Shown piece after piece: positions 9,660 through 19,067 of a DNA stretch of 56,442 nucleotides. How positions within the stretch are numbered: the first letter of the stretch is position 1; every line of letters begins with the position of its first letter. Below the pieces are notes generated by a model. The model worked only from the letters and a program-made list of their open reading frames with translations. It had not been told where the DNA came from and did no database searches. Source of the DNA: Candidatus Kuenenia stuttgartensis (GTDB lineage: Bacteria > Planctomycetota > Planctomycetia > Planctomycetales > Planctomycetaceae); contig CAMAWN010000013.1 of assembly GCA_945861865.1 (NCBI GenBank), positions 1-56,442 of the forward strand, written 5' to 3'. The position numbers and the translations under genes were made by a program.

Positions 9660-10130
9660 TCAAGGAGCGGGATTATAGGGGCGGTCGGGGCGGACTTCAT
9701 CTTTCCGAAGGCGCGGCGGTGTCTTCTCACGAAGATTGTCTGGCGAATTCACCCTCGTGCCGTCAGAGACGCTGCCCGTTCGCGGCTGTAATGCGATTAG
9801 AAACGAACTCTCCTGGCTGAAAACAAAGACCAGCACACAAGCCGAAGTCACCGCCAGTGCGGCGAACCAACCGTTGAACTCGCCGCGCGGTGAATCGGTC
9901 GCTCGTTCTCGAAGCCGATTGGCCAACACGGGCCAGACGCTGTCGGACTTTGGATGAATCTCCTGGATTCGGCTGCGTTGCAATACCGCGAAACCGTTTC
10001 GCAGTTGCTCCCAGAATGTCTGGCACTTCGCACAAGCCTGAAGATGGCTCTGCAACTCTTGGCTCTCCACTGGGGAAAGGTCTTCGCCCACAGCCAAAGC
10101 CATCTGACGCTGAGCAGTCTTGCAATTCAT
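9660..10130 (-). CDS. Zinc-finger anti-sigma factor
   Basis: 156 residues. The N-terminal zf-HC2 domain has C3 and H29-x3-C33-x2-C36 (SHLQACAKCQ). One membrane helix spans about residues 88-108 (GWFAALAVTSACVLVFVF). A basic, proline-rich tail of about 45 residues would be outside the membrane. The start codon overlaps the sigma-factor stop by ATGA, so the two are translationally coupled. It probably sequesters the sigma factor until an envelope signal arrives. Confidence 0.85.
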   Translation of the reverse strand: MNCKTAQRQMALAVGEDLSPVESQELQSHLQACAKCQTFWEQLRNGFAVLQRSRIQEIHPKSDSVWPVLANRLRERATDSPRGEFNGWFAALAVTSACVLVFVFSQESSFLIALQPRTGSVSDGTRVNSPDNLREKTPPRLRKDEVRPDRPYNPAP

Positions 10131-10780
10131 TTTTCGCTCTCCGCACTTTCTGACGGGGTGAAGTTCTCAGGCAGCACAGTTCCATGCCGCTTGCCCCAGT
10201 AATACTGAAACCGATGACGGGCCTCCGCCAGTCGCCAACGAATCGTCGCCTCTTTGCGATGCAGGACCGCTGCGATTTCCGAGGTGGAAAAATTCTCCAG
10301 ATCGCGCAGCGTCAGCACCGTGCGGTAATTCTCCGGGATCATCTGCAAAACTTTCTGGACCTCCTGTTGCAAGTCCAGCGTCTTGCGGGGATCGGCCACA
10401 GGGGGATCGGGAACTTTCTCCTTCCACCGATCCGTGAACAGCGACCAGCGGCCACGGCGTTTTTTTCGGCGAAGATAATCCAGCGTCAGGTTCACTCCGA
10501 TCCGGAACAGCCACGGACCAAATCGTCGGGATGAGTCGAACTGTTCCAGCCGGTCGTAAACCTTCAGGAAGGTCTCCTGAGCCAGATCCTCCGCCGTCTC
10601 CATGTTGTTGACGAACCGGTAAATGACACGAGTCAACCGCTGCTCGTACCGCAACACGAGTTCGCCGTAGGCCGCTTGGTCGCCGCGGCGCGCAGCCTCC
10701 ACCAGTCGAGCGTCACTTGAACCGCTCGACTCATGCAAGCTTTCGTCGATCTGCGACTGTGGCTCCAAGATGGTCATCAT
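10127..10780 (-). CDS. ECF-type RNA polymerase sigma factor
   Basis: 217 residues. Region 2 is seen as YRFVNNMETAEDLAQETFLK with VYDRLEQFD after it, and the region 2.4 end as RFGPWLFRIGVNLTLDYLRR. Region 4 is LTLRDLENFSTSEIAAVLHR with KEATIRWRLAEAR. Either of two adjacent ATGs (10780 or 10777) could be used. It directs RNA polymerase to a regulon that cannot be named from here. Coupled to its anti-sigma factor and followed by a zinc-ribbon and a GNAT gene in the same direction. Confidence 0.92.
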   Translation of the reverse strand: MMTILEPQSQIDESLHESSGSSDARLVEAARRGDQAAYGELVLRYEQRLTRVIYRFVNNMETAEDLAQETFLKVYDRLEQFDSSRRFGPWLFRIGVNLTLDYLRRKKRRGRWSLFTDRWKEKVPDPPVADPRKTLDLQQEVQKVLQMIPENYRTVLTLRDLENFSTSEIAAVLHRKEATIRWRLAEARHRFQYYWGKRHGTVLPENFTPSESAESEK

Positions 10781-10996: not shown

Positions 10997-11380
10997 ATGA
11001 GTTCGCACCTGAGTTTGTACGAGCGACTCGGCGGCGTGTACGCGATTGCGGCCGTCGTCGACGATTTCATCGACCGGATCATGCAGGACTCGCGGTTGAA
11101 CGCGAATCCAAAAGTGGATGAAGCTCATCACCGCGTCTCGAAAGCCGGCTTCAAGTACCTCGTCACCGAGCAAGTCTGCTGGGCGGCCGGAGGCCCGCAG
11201 CAATATACCGGCCGCTCGATGCACGACTCGCACGTCCACCTTGAGATCACCGAATTCGAGTGGCAATCATTCCTCGACGACCTGCGGCAAACCTTCGACA
11301 AGTTCGAGGTCCCCGCCGCCGAACGCGCCGAACTGCTGGCTATTGTCGAGAGCACCAAGTCCGACATTGTCCTGAAGTAG
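10997..11380 (+). CDS. Group I truncated haemoglobin
   Basis: 127 residues, the family's usual length. It starts SSHLSLYERLGGVYAIAAVV, the standard opening. The helix pattern includes FIDRI with the B-helix aromatic, then GRSMHDSHVHLEI, whose His is the expected proximal (F8) haem ligand. ATG 10997 has GGAG about 12 bases upstream. Such proteins bind O2 or detoxify NO; the physiological role here is unknown. It is isolated between an ECF operon on the other strand and the convergent fwdC. Confidence 0.88.
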   Translation: MSSHLSLYERLGGVYAIAAVVDDFIDRIMQDSRLNANPKVDEAHHRVSKAGFKYLVTEQVCWAAGGPQQYTGRSMHDSHVHLEITEFEWQSFLDDLRQTFDKFEVPAAERAELLAIVESTKSDIVLK

Positions 11381-11492
11381 GTCAGCCTACAAGCCTGGGG
11401 CAAATCTGCTCAAAACACCGTACCGAAGTGCATACTGCGTTGTTGCTGAGTGCCAGATCGCACCTGCCGCACATCGGCAATGCACCGCTCGG

Positions 11493-12305
11493 TCAAACTC
11501 GCGGTTGCCAGACCAGAATCTCACCCTTGCCGGGGACGGACGAGTCGCCGGAGTAACGATGATACGTACCGGTCTGTTCGTCCATCGGCAATGAGAGACC
11601 GAGTGGCGCGACATGTTTGGCGATCAGACGCAGGAAGGTCGGCGAGTAGGTGCAGGCGAAGGGGAACGTCGGCAGGAGCTTGATTGGCTTCAGCGAGATG
11701 ATCGTGCCGCGGATCATCCAGGCACCCGTGCGGATTTCGGCTCCGTTCATCAGGAGGATGGTGCCGCCCTTCATTTGCAGGCCGCAGAAGTCTCGCACTT
11801 GGCCTTTGACGGCGATGATGCCGCGCTTCATTCTCATGCCGACTTCCAGGCCGGCGGTGCCGCCGATCAGGATTGTGCCGTTGTTCATTCCGGAGAGACT
11901 GCCTCGATAGGCCGCTCCGACTTGGCCGCCGGCATTGCCGTGGACATGGATCAGGCCACCGGTCATCTCGCCGCCGATCCAATCGGAGGCGTTGCCAGTG
12001 ACTTCGATGGAGCCGCCTTTCATGGCGGCTCCGAGGTGCATTCCGACGTTGCCGCAGACCTTGATCCGGCCGCGAGTCATGGCTCGGCCAATGTATTTGA
12101 CCTTGGCGAGGTCGCCGTGGATTTCGAGTTCGTCGCTCGGCTCACCATCGACGGTGAAGAAGTCGTCCACTCGCAGTTGTCGCTTGCCGAGGAACACCGG
12201 CAGAGCGCGAATGGCGTCGAGGTTCAACCCGGAGAATTGATCGGGAGTGAGCATCTCGGCTTCGAGCGGAACCGTCGGTTGGTCTTTGAGCGTGAGCTTG
12301 ATCAT
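11493..12305 (-). CDS. fwdC: Formylmethanofuran dehydrogenase subunit C
   Basis: 270 residues. After an N-terminal lead (LTLKDQPTVPLEAEMLTPDQ) comes a right-handed beta-helix with glycine-rich turns repeating G-x-x-x-G-x-x-M-x-x-G-x-I-x-V-x-G, for example KGGSIEVTGNASDWIGGEM and GGLIHVHGNAGGQVG. This matches the FwdC/FhcC family, related to the glutamate synthase C-terminal domain. It is the structural partner of FwdA and, in bacterial Fhc, of the formyltransferase. The start ATG 12305 overlaps the fwdA stop (ATGA). Last gene of the operon and convergent with the haemoglobin gene. Confidence 0.92.
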   Translation of the reverse strand: MIKLTLKDQPTVPLEAEMLTPDQFSGLNLDAIRALPVFLGKRQLRVDDFFTVDGEPSDELEIHGDLAKVKYIGRAMTRGRIKVCGNVGMHLGAAMKGGSIEVTGNASDWIGGEMTGGLIHVHGNAGGQVGAAYRGSLSGMNNGTILIGGTAGLEVGMRMKRGIIAVKGQVRDFCGLQMKGGTILLMNGAEIRTGAWMIRGTIISLKPIKLLPTFPFACTYSPTFLRLIAKHVAPLGLSLPMDEQTGTYHRYSGDSSVPGKGEILVWQPRV

Positions 12306-13942
12306 GTTGTCTTCTGATACGAGCACTCGGCGATTTGCATTCCGTGAACGCGCTCGGCGTCGACGGGATAGTTCTCGAAGGACATCGTGTATTGCTGTTG
12401 GAATACCGGTTTCAGGTAGTCTTCGATGCCGGCGTCGTAGCTCGGCTGACAGACGAATTCGTGGCCGTCTTTGACCGAGCGAATCTCGCCCTCTTCGACC
12501 GCGACCTCGCCACCTTTCAGGACGTAGCGCGGGTAGCGAAACATCAGCTCGCCATCGGGATTCTGGTTGTAGATCGCGATGTCCGCGTCCGCTCCGACGC
12601 CGAGATGTCCCTTCTGTTTCATGCCAAGTGCTCGCGCGGGACCGGCGGATGTGATGATCGCGATTTCGTAGAGCGTGTATTCGCGGTCGAGATCGGCGAG
12701 GTAAATGCGGCTCAGCGCGGCTTCCGGCAGAGCGCGGACTCGTTCGCGGCGAATGTCGGCGTGCATCAGCAGGTGGATGATTTCGGGGTAGCGCCAGAAG
12801 CACGCGCCGTTCGGGTGGTCGGTCGTCAGGAAGATGCGCCACGGGTCGTTGATGAGCAGCAGCAATTCCAAACCGACAGCCCACTGCACAGCGTTGACCA
12901 GGTTGCTGCCTTTGTAGGTGTAGGGCACGATGCCGCAGCCGGTTTCGTTTTCGACGTCGAGATTGCCCCATTTGCGGCCGGTGAGCTGATACAGCAAGTG
13001 TTGCCACGGTCCGTCGGCGGTGATCGTCACGGCGTTGCCGAACAAGACCGCGCCGGCGTCGCACGTCAGATTCGGATGCGTGTTGAAATACTCGGCGAGC
13101 TGCACCGATTCCGACCGCATCGTGTGCCAGTCGTCGCCGCCGTAGGCGTGGAATTGCAGGTGCGCCATATGGGCTCGATTGCCTTCGAGCAGCTTCATCG
13201 TTTCCAACGTGGTGGAGACGTTGCCGGGGACTCCGAGATTGTTGCAGTGCAGGTGCATGGGGTGCGGCAGACCCAGCTCATCGCAAATCTTTGCGAGGTT
13301 GGCGATGATCATCCCCGGATTGACTTTGTTGTATCCGTCGATGGGCGAGTGAATCTGCTTGGCGTCCTTGCCGAACTTCCACGCGGCGACGCCGCCGGGA
13401 TTCACCGCCTTGATGCCGTAGGTCTTCGCGGCCGAAATCAGCCACGCGACGATGTGCTTGGCTTTTTCGTACTCGCCAACTTCCAGCAGGTCCATCACCA
13501 GTTCGTTGTTGCCCATCAACAGGCAGCAGGCTTTATCGACGATGGGCGTGTCACGCAGTTCTTCGTGCGTGTGCTTCGCGGAGAGCACCGGGACCGCCGC
13601 TTCGACGACCGTCGTGTAGCCCATGCCCGCGTACAAATAACCGGTTGCGAACGTCGTCGGCGTCTGTCCGCCGATCCCCATGCGGGTCTCTTTCGTGTGC
13701 AGGAACTTCGCGGCGACTCGCTGATTCTCCGGCGTCAGCGCACGAGCAAAATTGAGCGCGGCTCCTGCGACGTGCGTGTGAATATCCACGCCGCCGGGAA
13801 ACACGATCATCCCATTCGCGTCGATCGTCCGGCCACCTTCCACATTGGCGACGACCTTGCCGTCCGCAATGCAGATGTCCCGCACTTCACCATTGATGCC
13901 GTTGGCCGGGTCATAGACCTTTCCGCCAGTGATCCGCAGCAT
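12302..13942 (-). CDS. fwdA: Formylmethanofuran dehydrogenase subunit A (amidohydrolase)
   Basis: 546 residues of the dihydroorotase/urease-like metal amidohydrolase family. This subunit makes or cleaves the formyl-carrier bond using formate. Metal-site elements seen: PGGVDIHTHVAG (two His ligands), IKAVNPGG (the lysine region), HPMHLHCNNLG, and LTTDHPNGACFWRYP with the catalytic Asp. The start ATG 13942 has AGGAGAGGA upstream. Lies 42 nt after fwdB and overlaps fwdC. It works in a complex with FwdB/FwdD in archaea, and with FhcC/FhcD in methylotrophic bacteria. Confidence 0.95.
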   Translation of the reverse strand: MLRITGGKVYDPANGINGEVRDICIADGKVVANVEGGRTIDANGMIVFPGGVDIHTHVAGAALNFARALTPENQRVAAKFLHTKETRMGIGGQTPTTFATGYLYAGMGYTTVVEAAVPVLSAKHTHEELRDTPIVDKACCLLMGNNELVMDLLEVGEYEKAKHIVAWLISAAKTYGIKAVNPGGVAAWKFGKDAKQIHSPIDGYNKVNPGMIIANLAKICDELGLPHPMHLHCNNLGVPGNVSTTLETMKLLEGNRAHMAHLQFHAYGGDDWHTMRSESVQLAEYFNTHPNLTCDAGAVLFGNAVTITADGPWQHLLYQLTGRKWGNLDVENETGCGIVPYTYKGSNLVNAVQWAVGLELLLLINDPWRIFLTTDHPNGACFWRYPEIIHLLMHADIRRERVRALPEAALSRIYLADLDREYTLYEIAIITSAGPARALGMKQKGHLGVGADADIAIYNQNPDGELMFRYPRYVLKGGEVAVEEGEIRSVKDGHEFVCQPSYDAGIEDYLKPVFQQQYTMSFENYPVDAERVHGMQIAECSYQKTT

Positions 13943-13984
13943 GTCCTCTCCTGATGTGACTCGGCGGTCACTCGCTTGTTCTCG

Positions 13985-15319
13985 CTACATCACACCCGAA
14001 GCCATCGTCGCTGGCTTCGGCAACCACGCGGATTTCTTGTCGACGGCGGCGATGATCCGTCGCACGACTTCTTCGTCGCTGGGATACGGCGACTTGAGCA
14101 CCGGGCGCAGCGGCAGCGGAACCTCATCCATGCGATACGCCGTGCCGGGCGAGCTGATGCCGGTCACGGACGTCGTGATGTGGACGCGAGCCAGTTTGCT
14201 GGTGTGCGTGACTTTCGGGTCGAGCACGATCGTCGGCACGCGAGCCAGCGTGTCGATCCCCGGTTGAGGCATCGTCGCACCGGGGTCGGCTCCCAGCACG
14301 AAGGCCGCGTCAATGTCGCCACGCACCAGCAGGTCCACGGTTGAAAATTCGCCGGGATTGAATCGCGGGAAGCCTCGGCACAGGTTGACTCCGAACGGAT
14401 AGCCGGTCGTCCAGCGCAGGACCATGTCCGCGCCGGCGACGTTGCCGTGTCCGCGCATGGGCATCGCCACGAACTTTGTGAACGCATTCATCTCGGCCGC
14501 CAGCGTCAGCACGGCCGCCGAGTTCATGTGCTTGCCCCGAGTCATCGACAGACCCATCCCAAAGAAGATCACGCCGAACTTGCAGCGCTTCATGCGATCG
14601 ACCAAGTCCTGTAACTGTTCCAGCTTCAGCCCGGTTTCTTCCACGAGTGCGGTATCTACGCGGTTGCCCTTCACGAGCGCACGCAACGCGGTCACGACTT
14701 CAAAATCCTTGCCGGGTCGCACCTGCAAGAAGATGTCCGCCGCTTTGACGCTCATCGTTTCGCGAATATCGACCAGCACCATCGTCCGGCCTTTGCGGCC
14801 TTCGGGAAGGAATTTCCCTTTCTGCATGATGGTGTATTTTGTGAAGTGCCGCGGATGACACTCGGCCGGGTTGCCTCCCCAATAGAGGATGAAGTCCGCT
14901 CGATTTTTCACTTCGCCGAGCGTACACGAGACCTTGCCACCCAACTGGGCGGCGATTTCGGTAGGCCCGTGTCACAAGGAGGTGTGACTGTCGATCACCG
15001 CTCCAATCTTTTCGGCGAGCGACACCGCCTCTCGCTGAGCCTCGCAGGTCACGTTGCTGAGGCCGTAGACCAGCGGCATGTTCGCTCGATGCAGGTACTC
15101 GGCCGCCGCCTCGACCGCGTCATCGACCGACGCTTCTTTGCCGTCAATCAAAGCGTCGGGATACAGCTTTTCGGCCGTGTGGTTCACGAACCACGAAGCG
15201 CCCAGGCTGCACGCGGCCTTGGTCTTGATGATCTTGACACCGTCGTCGTGCAATTCGATGTCGTCACACACACAACCGCAAAAAGTGCAGGTCGCGTTCT
15301 GTGTGATGGTCACGGTCAT
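13985..15319 (-). CDS. fwdB: Formylmethanofuran dehydrogenase subunit B, predicted selenoprotein (UGA at residue 116)
   Basis: One frame of 445 codons interrupted only by TGA at 14974-14972. Residues 1-115 hold the [4Fe-4S] motif C11-x2-C14-x3-C18-D-D and C37. Then comes DSHTSL-[UGA]-HGPTEIAAQLGGKVSC, and the frame continues with FILYWGGNPAE, FFGMGLSMTRG and MPMRGHGNVAG to a TAG stop. In archaeal FwdB this position (about 118) is the Cys or selenocysteine that binds Mo/W, in [C/U]-H-G-P. A SECIS-like hairpin follows (14936-14953). I therefore read one selenoprotein of 444 residues. The alternatives are a Cys-to-stop mutation or a sequence error. No sel genes are in view. The start ATG 15319 has TTGAGG upstream. 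Confidence 0.85.
14936..14974 (-). promoter_or_regulatory. Putative bacterial SECIS element with Sec UGA codon
   Basis: The Sec codon is TGA at 14974-14972 on the minus strand. After 18 nt, GCCGCCC (14953-14947) pairs with GGGUGGC (14942-14936), seven pairs including one G-U, closing a 4-nt loop AGUU. The loop begins 25 nt after the UGA and has G at its second position followed by U. From memory, bacterial SECIS rules ask for a small apical loop with an early G about 16-37 nt past the UGA, and this fits. The first ten bases after UGA also resemble those of E. coli fdhF, because both encode U-H-G-P. SelB binding is untested. Confidence 0.7.
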
Positions 15320-15356
15320 AGTGGCCTCAATTCATGCAATTCATTCAGAAGCTTGA

Positions 15357-15373
15357 CCGCCCGGACCGGGCGG
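15357..15373 (-). promoter_or_regulatory. Perfect short hairpin between the small ORF and fwdB
   Basis: CCGCCCG and CGGGCGG pair perfectly (7 bp, all G-C) around a 3-nt loop, 12 nt after the UGA stop of the 50-codon ORF and about 37 nt before the fwdB start. There is no T-run after it. It may shape the mRNA between the two genes. Its position after a UGA also resembles a SECIS, but the tail that would be read has no recognisable content. Confidence 0.4.
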
Positions 15374-15385
15374 AACGAAAAACGT

Positions 15386-15538
15386 TCAACCCAGTTCCCG
15401 GCCAGGGAAGCTCCCGCAAATGCGGCGAGGCATGTACCGGCCGTTCTCAATCATCTCCCACGCAATCGGCTCTTCGACTGGCGTCTGCTGCAGCCGCTGG
15501 CCCACCGGAGCGGACGCTTGTGCTTCATCGTGATTCAT
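15386..15538 (-). CDS. Small 50-residue protein inside the fwd operon, unknown
   Basis: Translated from ATG 15538 with AGAGG about nine bases upstream, the product begins MNHDEAQASAPVGQRLQQTP, continues EEPIAWEMIENGRYMPRRIC and ends GSFPGRELG. The acidic first half, the aromatic middle and the basic R-R-I-C-G-S-F-P-G-R end look like a real protein. It lies between fwdD and fwdB on the same strand, 77 nt after fwdD and 66 nt before fwdB. I know no family for it. It could be an accessory or assembly factor of the dehydrogenase. It contains one Cys (residue 40). Confidence 0.5.
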   Translation of the reverse strand: MNHDEAQASAPVGQRLQQTPVEEPIAWEMIENGRYMPRRICGSFPGRELG

Positions 15539-15556
15539 TGGTGATTCCTCTCATTC

Positions 15557-15612
15557 GTGGCCGACGCAGCTTGCGTCGGCAAACTCTCTCGGACGCTGGC
15601 AGCGTCCGCCAC
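15557..15612. repeat. Imperfect palindromic repeat (GTGGCCGACGC type)
   Basis: GTGGCCGACGCAGCTTGC on the left pairs imperfectly with GCTGGCAGCGTCCGCCAC on the right. A similar element lies at 39967-40013. It fills the spacer between fwdD and the small ORF, just after the fwdD stop. Confidence 0.6.
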
Positions 15613-15615
15613 GAT

Positions 15616-15957
15616 TCATCCCACGATTGGTTCGACTTCGACTTCCCAACCTTTGGAGGTCGGCATCCCCGTACCGTCGGTGGTTTGTCCCATCAATCGG
15701 CAGGTCGGCGGCCCGTATGGAACGAAAATGATTCCTGGCGGAACTTTTCCTTCCTGGCAAAGAAACACGGCCTCGCCCGTTTCCGAAATGACGCGGACGT
15801 TCGAGCCCGTCAGGATCCCCGCCTCTTTCATATCGTCCACATTCATGTGGATGGTGTTGACGATGGCCTGATATTCCGCACCATCCTTGCCAACATTGAT
15901 CTGCTGCCCCTGTTTGGTCGTGCGACCGGCATTCATGCTGTAACGCTTTCCTGGCAT
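15616..15957 (-). CDS. fwdD: Formylmethanofuran dehydrogenase subunit D (molybdopterin-dinucleotide-binding)
   Basis: 113 residues, the usual size of the stand-alone molybdopterin-dinucleotide-binding beta-barrel (PF01568) that completes the FwdB active site in archaea. Visible: NAGRTTKQGQQINVGKDG (family start G-R-T-x-x-Q-G), TIHMNVDDMKEAGIL, GSNVRVIS, and PPGIIFVPYGPPTCRLMG. The start ATG 15957 has GAGAGGG upstream. Bacterial Fhc complexes use FhcD for a formyltransferase, a different protein. This gene is of the archaeal FwdD type, which argues that the complex binds a Mo or W cofactor. Confidence 0.88.
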   Translation of the reverse strand: MPGKRYSMNAGRTTKQGQQINVGKDGAEYQAIVNTIHMNVDDMKEAGILTGSNVRVISETGEAVFLCQEGKVPPGIIFVPYGPPTCRLMGQTTDGTGMPTSKGWEVEVEPIVG

Positions 15958-16022
15958 CGGACCCTCTCGAAAACGGCACCAAACTTGCGAACGGGGCGAG
16001 TCTATCGCCCCCGGCGGAACCG

Positions 16023-16867
16023 TCACAAGTCGGCAACTCTCCGCAGTCGATGCGTCTTGCGTCGGATAGGTGCGGAGCAGAAACCGTCTCCACCACAAAC
16101 TGCGTCGGCCGTTTTCACGGGCGTGGGAGCAGGCGGCTTCGTGAGGATCAGTTTCCCTCCCGCCAAAATTAGCACGGACGCCAGCAGAACATGAATGACC
16201 GGCACCGAGAAGCGACGGCTGCCGAGATACGAACCCAACCCACCGCCGACAACCACGGCTACGATCATCGGCCACAAAAACGGCGGCAGCGTGATCCCTT
16301 TTCGCATGGCTCCGAGCAAACCGGAAGCCGAGTTCACCAGGATGTAAACGACCGACACCGCCGCCGCTTGTTTCGTCGACGACCAACGTAGCAGGATCAT
16401 CAGTGGCGTCAAAAAGATGCCGCCACCCGTGGCGGTCAGTCCTGCGAGAAACCCCAACACTCCGCCCGTCACCATCGCGATCGGTTTCGCCGGTGCGTGA
16501 GTTTCGGCCGCCGGCTTCAACGAAATCAGCAACCGCGCCGCTGACGCCAACAGCACAAGCCCGATCAGGATGTTGAGCACTCTTGTCGGCAACGTCAGTG
16601 TTCCGCCGTAGTACGCGGCTGGAATCGACGCCAGAGCGAACGGCCAGAACAGCGACCACCGGAAATATCCGGCTCGCCAGAACTGCACCGAGCCAATCGT
16701 CGCCACGACGATGTTCAGCACGAGCGCCGTCGGCCGGATCATCGGCGAAGCCACGCTCGCCAACGCCATCACCGCGATATACCCCGATGCTCCCGCATGG
16801 CCGACCGATGAATACAAAAACGCGACGACCAGCACGGCGGCACACAATGCGATGTCAGCGGTCTGCA

Positions 16868-16868
<1 letters not shown>
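16023..16868 (-). CDS. TauE/SafE (TSUP)-family membrane permease
   Basis: 281 residues with about eight hydrophobic segments. The first half has [20 protein letters not shown] and the second a matching [20 protein letters not shown], the twin glycine-rich motifs of this family. TSUP members move sulfite, sulfoacetate, thiosulfate and other anions. The substrate here cannot be told. Its ATG (16868-16866) overlaps the stop of the upstream pseudopilin gene by one base, so translation is coupled. fwdD follows 65 nt downstream. A link to supply of an oxyanion or sulfur for the Mo/W enzyme is only a guess. Confidence 0.82.
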
Positions 16869-17908
<1,040 letters not shown>

Positions 17909-17999: not shown

Positions 18000-19067
18000 A
18001 TGTCAAGTTCGCGACGGTCTTTCAATCGAGTCCTCGAACGCCGAGCCGCGCGCGGCTGGAGCCAAGCCGATCTGGCCGAACGGGCGGGGATCTCGCGCAC
18101 GGCGGTCAGCGCGATCGAGGCTGAGCGTCTCGTGCCGTCGGTCGCGGCGGCGCTTGGCTTGGCAAAGGCGATGGGGTGTTCGGTCGAAGAACTCTTCGGC
18201 ACGGGACACTCGCGATCGTCGAAAGCCGCGTCACCGACATGGGCGTGGGAACCGACTCAACCACTCAGCCGTTACTGGCTGGCGAACGTGGACGGTCAGC
18301 GACGGTTTTATCCCGTCGAAGCAACGCCGCTGGGCGAGATTCCTCACGACGGTGTCCACTCGTCTGGAAGACGCGCGGCCAACGAGCGACTTGCGGACAG
18401 CACGCTGGTCATGGCGAGCTGCGATCCGGCCGTCGGTTTGCTCGCCCGCATCTACGAGCAGGTCACCGGCTATCGGTTGCTCGCGTTTCCGCGTTCCAGC
18501 CGGCAGGCGTTGCAACTGCTTCAGCAGGGCTTGGCACATGTGGCCGGCGTGCATCTGAGTGCTACAGATTCCGACACCGGCAATGCGACATCCGTTCGAG
18601 AAATCCTCGGCACACCGGCCTTCTTACTGCGAGTCGCCGCATGGGAAGATGGTGTCGCGGTCGGGACGGGAGTCACTGCTTCCACTCTGCGCGGCCTCTT
18701 GCGAGACCACCCCACTTGGATTGGTCGTGAGCCGGGTTCGGGCGCTCGGCAATGTCTGGATGAACTGCTCGATCATCGTCCCGCACCGCGACGACTCGCT
18801 CGCGATCATCGTGGCGTCGCCGAGGCGATCCGCTGTGGCTGGGCCGACGCGGGAGTTTGCCTGAAGCTGGTCGCCGACGAAGCCGGACTTCGATTCCTAC
18901 CGGTTCGCACCGAAGGTTTCGACCTGTGCTTCACCAACAAGCACGAGCACGACCCGCGCGTGCAAGCGCTGGTGCGAGTCGTCCAATCCAGCGAGTACCG
19001 CGACTTGCTCGGCGAGCTACCGGGTTATGACGTCTCTCAGACTGGGACACTCCAGCCCGTGAGTTGA
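18000..19067 (+). CDS. HTH regulator with molybdate-binding-like (COG1910/PF12727) domain
   Basis: 355 residues. Residues about 8-62 are an XRE-type helix-turn-helix (RGWSQADLAERAGISRTAVS with AIEAERLVPS). Residues about 135-350 are a periplasmic-binding-protein-like domain seen in SCDPAVGLLARIYEQVTGYR, REPGSGARQCLDELL, VAEAIRCGWADAGVCLK and the closing GYDVSQTG. This domain is also fused to molybdopterin-biosynthesis proteins in archaea and is thought to sense molybdate, tungstate or a related ligand. The gene is divergent from the pseudopilin-permease-fwd run, so metal-responsive control of the Mo/W enzyme is a reasonable but unproven inference. Confidence 0.82.
   Translation: MSSSRRSFNRVLERRAARGWSQADLAERAGISRTAVSAIEAERLVPSVAAALGLAKAMGCSVEELFGTGHSRSSKAASPTWAWEPTQPLSRYWLANVDGQRRFYPVEATPLGEIPHDGVHSSGRRAANERLADSTLVMASCDPAVGLLARIYEQVTGYRLLAFPRSSRQALQLLQQGLAHVAGVHLSATDSDTGNATSVREILGTPAFLLRVAAWEDGVAVGTGVTASTLRGLLRDHPTWIGREPGSGARQCLDELLDHRPAPRRLARDHRGVAEAIRCGWADAGVCLKLVADEAGLRFLPVRTEGFDLCFTNKHEHDPRVQALVRVVQSSEYRDLLGELPGYDVSQTGTLQPVS

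Follow-up and report, generated by a model that had tools for sequence, protein, structure and literature searches.

Does the UGA codon inside fwdB break the gene, or is it read as selenocysteine (Sec)? The question is raised by an operon on the reverse strand of the DNA analysed here (the window: a stretch of 56,442 nucleotides from a draft planctomycete genome), in which genes for a formylmethanofuran dehydrogenase lie in the order fwdD – small ORF – fwdB – fwdA – fwdC. Three of the genes were assigned by family profiles: fwdA (12302–13942, −; 546 aa) and fwdC (11493–12305, −; 270 aa, overlapping the fwdA stop) score 695.1 bits with TIGR03121 (cut-off 392.75) and 260.9 bits with TIGR03122 (cut-off 130.65), and fwdD (15616–15957, −; 113 aa) exceeds the cut-off of PF01568 with 36.8 bits, while its 76.8 bits with NF042908 are below the cut-off of 175. 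We hold with high confidence, although no experiment has addressed Sec insertion, that the operon determines a catalytic (Mo/W)-type enzyme and that UGA encodes Sec in two of its proteins.

The UGA codon at the ligand position of FwdB

The first-pass annotation of this DNA joined two open stretches into one full-length FwdB, and reading through the UGA does give a single frame of 444 residues (13985–15319, −) that comfortably exceeds the family profile of this catalytic subunit (TIGR03129; 499.8 bits against 327.8). Its sole internal stop is the TGA at 14972–14974 (−), and translation puts it where the annotation had, at residue 116 and just before HGP, in the context SHTSL-U-HGPTE. Residue 116, the position of the Mo/W ligand, aligns with the cysteine of CHGP in four solved chains (8rja_B, 5t5i_B, 9sw6_J and 7bkb_H) and with a residue given as X, which we infer to be Sec, in chain 9sfi_Q. 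C11, C14, C18 and C37 are retained, satisfying the N-terminal 4Fe–4S cysteine motif of FwdB, which is also visible in the aligned structural chains. The window's draft genome contains only one FwdB match, the Sec form.

Relatives came from a contig scan (527 found, the best 80 kept) and from a genome search that supplied 30 further loci; the two sources overlap, so the 110 loci (L009–L118) represent 93 distinct sequences. Both sets consist of nearest relatives and are therefore not a random draw. In all 110, codon 116 of the best match is TGA. Most of the 80 kept loci are labelled planctomycete, and five are labelled Acidobacteria. Of 197 related genomes, 36 have a match of at least 73% identity that carries the TGA, the codon itself being verified in 31. 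By comparison, 55 non-Sec homologues (below 70% identity) have a cysteine codon at this position in 48 cases (24 TGC and 24 TGT), glycine in six and tyrosine in one, and all 55 retain the four cluster cysteines. The check suggested in the first-pass annotation, that cysteine should appear in the UGA column of an alignment, is thus fulfilled both by structures and by homologues, and FwdB meets the usual selenoprotein criterion of a conserved UGA with Cys in homologues. One group of loci (L171–L182 and L185–L187, a third clade) holds more distant planctomycete FwdB paralogues, whose ligand residue is Cys, Gly or Tyr and which keep the four cluster cysteines. Another paralogue, with threonine as the potential ligand (TETSL-T-HGTME), lies between the small ORF and the Sec-type fwdB in L044 (6619–7872) and L050 (6547–7824).

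Two readings would rob the UGA of its meaning. The draft genome is in 351 contigs and about 90% complete, and one might suppose that fwdB is a pseudogene or that the TGA arose through an error in the reads or their assembly; but all 110 best-matching loci, drawn from many separate assemblies, have the same TGA, which for practical purposes excludes a read error, and the gene is evidently under purifying selection, with no internal stop other than UGA 116 in any of the 93 distinct genes and dN/dS values of 0.02–0.16 between the window's fwdB and eight relatives, before as well as after the UGA. The additional inactivating changes in relatives that would have refuted the original proposal are not seen, its remark that the surrounding codons show no decay is upheld, and we allow the pseudogene or error reading virtually no chance. 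Nor do we give more than slight credence to a non-catalytic scaffold of the FhcB type, in which the identity of the ligand residue would be irrelevant. Ftr/FhcD and Fae genes are present in the genome, and some planctomycete paralogues do carry Gly, Thr or Tyr at the ligand site; against this, the window's FwdB retains the ligand position and the four FeS-cluster cysteines, whose loss would be the mark of a scaffold, and its full-length matches are to catalytic FwdB, whereas the match to 6s6y_B (361 aa), which we take to be a methylotroph FhcB, is weak and partial (55.5 bits, over 57–152). FhcB is said to lack Mo/W-bisPGD (PMC10100899, in the part of that article available). Both readings were ruled out on these grounds.

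The fwdB hairpin and the machinery for selenocysteine

Was there also a signal to direct Sec insertion? A hairpin with the loop AGUU had been noted 18 nt past the UGA, and it is present at 14936–14953 (−), at offsets +21 to +38 from the T of the UGA, with a 7-bp stem. The loop is AGUU in all 93 distinct sequences and all seven stem pairs are present in 82 of them, while none of the 55 non-Sec homologues forms the hairpin. Constraint on the RNA is evident in the codons that make it up: all 93 sequences use CAG for the Gln at +27 and TTG for the Leu at +30, though leucine has six codons; of 185 seven-codon stretches in fwdB, the one from +21 shows the least synonymous entropy; and purines occupy the third position of two alanine codons in the stem in 0% and 1% of sequences, compared with a median of 42% over 27 conserved alanine columns. 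A two-sided change (C–G to U–A) was seen in one locus, L046. Folding energies add little. The hairpin region is mildly below synonymous shuffles (mean z −0.90, against 0.25 in non-Sec homologues), but another segment of fwdB gives a similar value (−0.80), so the signal is weak and not specific; in the window alone, a 61-nt fold gives z −2.78 and a shifted fold −0.73. The criterion of a bacterial SECIS hairpin is met, in the absence of SelB binding data.

The machinery needed to use such a signal, another check proposed at the outset, is all found in the window's draft genome: tRNA-Sec (72.7 bits, with ARAGORN in agreement), selB (336.9 bits), selA (523.7) and selD (302.3) each exceed their cut-offs. 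Among the best 80 of the 527 relatives, L011 and L018 carry selB, selA and tRNA-Sec no farther than about 8 kb upstream of fwdB (L183, also scanned for Sec genes, is the same region as L011), selD is likewise within about 8 kb upstream in L018, and in L023 selD is about 3 kb downstream. A selA match over the cut-off was found in 36 of 37 Sec-FwdB genomes but in only 69 of 160 others, and a tRNA-Sec match of at least 59 bits in 34 of 37 compared with 60 of 160, neither comparison being corrected for relatedness. At least one of the two is present in each of the 37. Counting against the Sec reading, no tRNA-Sec of at least 59 bits was found in three of the 37 genomes, and selA over the cut-off is absent from one. 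The 59-bit threshold is our own choice, made because weaker matches look like other tRNAs; a 55-bit match in G010 stops at the final base of its contig. In L001, a 546-aa ORF (16–1656, +) runs antisense across the tRNA-Sec gene (1499–1593, −) at the 3′ end of the ORF; judged without a family search, it resembles a tyrosine recombinase.

With the machinery present, the TGA recurrent and the gene under constraint, the Sec-FwdB reading is well supported, although experimental proof of Sec insertion is lacking. We envisage that SelB and Sec-tRNA-Sec would read UGA 116 as directed by the AGUU hairpin, and that Sec 116 would become the Mo/W ligand of the enzyme; the bound Mo/W-bisPGD and the formate/CO2 activity are themselves inferred. 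Catalysis would probably run from the formyl carrier to CO2, in H4MPT-linked C1 oxidation, a direction inferred from the presence of two Ftr and two Fae genes.

A small ORF between fwdD and fwdB

A second ORF with a UGA and a hairpin, directly upstream of fwdB, had been overlooked. It occupies 15341–15538 (−) and has 65 codons plus a stop, with TGA (15386–15388, −) as codon 51, giving a predicted Sec 51 in GRELG-U-TF, and the hairpin CCGCCC-GGUCC-GGGCGG at 15357–15373 (−). A fwdD gene was located in 89 of the 93 loci, and there the fwdD–fwdB gap that contains the small ORF measures at least 198 nt, with a median of 344 nt. Six Cys-FwdB operons served for comparison. One of them yielded no fwdD; in the other five the gap to the first aligned fwdB residue is 42, 48, 42, 59 or 163 nt. 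None of the six matches the small ORF, and, with one gap of 163 nt, it cannot be said that all such operons are without space for it. A motif search located the small ORF in 92 of the 93 distinct loci, the remaining locus (L084) being cut off with only 193 nt upstream. The motif search looked for TGA, so its occurrence in 92/92 follows from the design; no TGA was demanded in the profile searches, and every strong match that they gave (E under 1e-17; 37 of 197 and 10 of 392 genomes) has exactly one TGA.

Ten positions are invariant in a 40-row alignment of the small protein (W27, R34, P37, R39, G42, S43, G46, G50, U51 and F53). The 24 codons before the UGA have a median dN/dS of 0.15 (378 usable pairs out of 600 sampled), compared with 1.87 (387 pairs) and 1.72 (190 pairs) for the other frames of the same stretch under a looser dS filter. 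After the UGA, the mismatch by codon position over the next four codons is 0.36, 0.26 and 0.55, and the codon at +2 is TTC or TTT, for phenylalanine, in 92/92. The criterion of a conserved UGA with coding on both sides is therefore met, but by only four codons on the downstream side. A Shine–Dalgarno-like triplet lies ahead of 63 of 89 predicted starts. Cys homologues are the usual support for a selenoprotein, not a defining need; no Cys form was found among the strong matches in the 197 and 392 genomes, and because none has been seen the family, if it is one of selenoproteins, is beyond the reach of methods that rely on Cys/TGA pairs. Searches of Pfam, NCBIfam, PHROGs and the PDB gave no significant match to the small protein, and its predicted structure is poor (mean pLDDT 59.0, pTM 0.25), with one short β-hairpin.

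In both surveys, the small ORF occurs in exactly the genomes that have Sec-FwdB. Its strong matches in 37 of the 197 relatives comprise the 36 Sec-FwdB genomes and G109, in which fwdB is cut by a contig end; of 392 genomes across the phylum, the same 10 carry both the small ORF and the DNA pattern for U-HGP (five of the 10 are also among the 197). In G337 each of the two genes lies at the end of a contig of its own. Six weak profile matches (a second one in G160, and single ones in G181, G080, G100, G133 and G170; E 0.0008–0.008) were set aside, the motif being absent from G160 and G181, the two inspected.

A hairpin register was found in 92/92 small ORFs, with a five-base loop in 91, mainly GGUCC (35), GGUUC (33) or AGUUC (10). 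Only two distances from the UGA occur, 12 nt (48 cases) and 15 nt (43). All 91 retain the four inner pairs, and two-sided changes are seen: the third pair is U–A in 54, C–G in 31 and U–G in 6, and the sixth is C–G in 39, U–A in 29, U–G in 3 and unpaired in 20. A FastTree phylogeny of fwdB from which codons 0 to +20 had been left out calls for a minimum of 14 changes at the third pair and 23 at the sixth, and when partners were dealt anew no more than 80 of 91 were paired at the third position. The criterion of a covarying hairpin past the UGA is thus met, with the reservation that the register taken for each sequence was the one giving the longest stem around a loop of GGT, AGT, CGT or GGG, a choice that favours pairing and raises the counts of pairs. 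Neither the fixed spacing in steps of 3 nt nor the tail that follows the hairpin reveals much about the protein past that point, and the folding energy of the region in the window alone is unremarkable (z −1.14 and −1.83). Bacterial SECIS elements, that of E. coli fdhF among them, are hairpins that follow the UGA and whose short loop contains a U and an invariant G. Both hairpins in the window share these features and a spacing of 12–18 nt; their loops are AGUU in fwdB and GGU(C/U)C in the small ORF, and there are no SelB binding data for either. Rfam gave no match at either hairpin in a search of 11000–17500; a narK-like match at 17076–17180, weak (21.5 bits against 43.2) and away from both, was of no help.

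What the small ORF may do, and how the operon compares with known systems

How might the small ORF be used? We think it very likely that the fwdD–fwdB gap holds a new family of tiny proteins, found only in Sec form and only with Sec-FwdB, that acts either as a partner or maturation factor or as a selenium-sensing leader peptide. The same Sec machinery would read its UGA, with the GGU(C/U)C hairpin of the small ORF as the signal. The most likely role, with chances somewhat better than even, is a trans-acting one, in which the Sec-bearing small protein would be a partner of Sec-FwdB or a factor for its maturation, the function itself being a guess. A trans-acting partner is favoured because other ORFs separate the small ORF from fwdB in L022 and L025, and because the threonine-type FwdB paralogue intervenes in L044 and L050. 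In L016 and L057 the gaps are about 370 nt. These last two gaps seem to hold another short ORF, beginning MIHYHSAYY.

The main alternative, which we consider possible though distinctly less probable, is a leader acting in cis, whose peptide would have no task in trans: its UGA and hairpin would report the supply of Sec-tRNA, readthrough or termination would tune expression of fwdB, fwdA and fwdC, and the approximately 25 conserved residues before the UGA would sit in the ribosome tunnel. Sec-FwdB itself would be unaffected. Such a leader would suit the restriction of the small ORF to Sec-FwdB loci without any Cys form, its place just upstream of fwdB in most loci (a median of 107 nt from its UGA to the fwdB start), a conserved core that ends at the UGA and codon +2, and the want of a confident fold. 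It sits less well with the intervening ORFs and paralogue just mentioned, and the invariant phenylalanine two codons past the UGA suits a finished protein at least equally. It is improbable, in our estimation, that the UGA is simply an ordinary stop and the hairpin some other RNA element of the operon, such as a regulator or a processing site. A conserved hairpin close after a stop can indeed serve other ends, and stop-to-start spacing is not distinctive for the readthrough frame (28 of 92, compared with 18 and 17 in the other frames); but codon periodicity and the invariant TTY continue past the UGA, strong profile matches never have UAA or UAG in its place, the two spacings to the hairpin differ by just 3 nt, the loop and geometry resemble those of the neighbouring fwdB hairpin, and the small ORF is strictly tied to Sec-using operons.

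Sec-FwdB is of a known kind, and its recognition in the first-pass annotation, although right, was not new, because a Sec-type fmdB was reported in 2016 in the planctomycete isolate P2, in an operon ordered fmdD-fmdB-fmdA-fmdC (PMC4807772; this and the other articles compared here were accessible in part only). The closest match reported was a Lake Washington fosmid, and Gly forms were recorded in three other planctomycetes (PMC4807772). P2 and the window belong to the same phylum and are alike in the UGA-encoded Sec of subunit B, in operon order and in having genes for Sec insertion; they differ in that no gene is named between fmdD and fmdB of P2, in the parts of the article available, and in that P2 has Sec and Cys forms (PMC4807772), whereas the window's draft genome has only the Sec form. 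The Sec FwdB of methanogens (Methanopyrus kandleri) is of the same family, with the same U-HGP ligand position (PMC4807772, PMC13188914); a 2026 review lists Sec-FwdB in both bacteria and archaea in its Table 1, although its text, as far as available, speaks of methanogens (PMC13188914). Unlike that of methanogens, the bacterial hairpin is within the gene, right after the UGA, and in a tree of 86 FwdB sequences (26 Sec, 55 non-Sec and five archaeal) the bacterial Sec forms group in a single clade (100/100) that excludes the five archaeal rows, with the caveats that the bootstrap had not settled and that several branches are long. What is added for the bacterial Sec-FwdB already on record is its conservation over 93 distinct loci, with a defined hairpin.

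For the small ORF we found no report. Small bacterial selenoproteins of unknown function are a familiar kind in the 2026 review table, but we did not recognise the motif GRxLG-U-xF among the small families there, in the portion available (PMC13188914). The new selenoprotein families in the accessible part of PMC12013277 all have Cys homologues, whereas none was found for the small ORF. It was not found by literature searches, nor by word searches of the available text of PMC12013277 and PMC5029168, supplements being outside their scope; it may be listed in the S9 table of selenoprotein candidates of PMC4807772, which was likewise outside the scope of the search. The small ORF is a testable candidate for two questions: does a Sec-containing Mo/W enzyme need a dedicated helper, and is a UGA in a leader peptide a means by which bacteria sense selenium? 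If the proposal is true, it would provide either a second selenoprotein linked to the first or a leader peptide gating a selenoenzyme operon.

Finally, we draw attention to three neighbours of the fwd operon. Immediately upstream of fwdD is a gene for a hydrophobic protein (16023–16919, −) whose sequence, without a family search, we take to be reminiscent of TauE/SafE permeases. Near this Mo/W operon, 18000–19064 (+) encodes a protein with HTH and PBP-like domains (PF01381, PF12727), possibly a regulator responsive to molybdate or tungstate, though this role is a guess. Downstream of the operon, an ECF sigma factor and a zf-HC2 anti-sigma factor are encoded as a pair at 9663–10780 (−).
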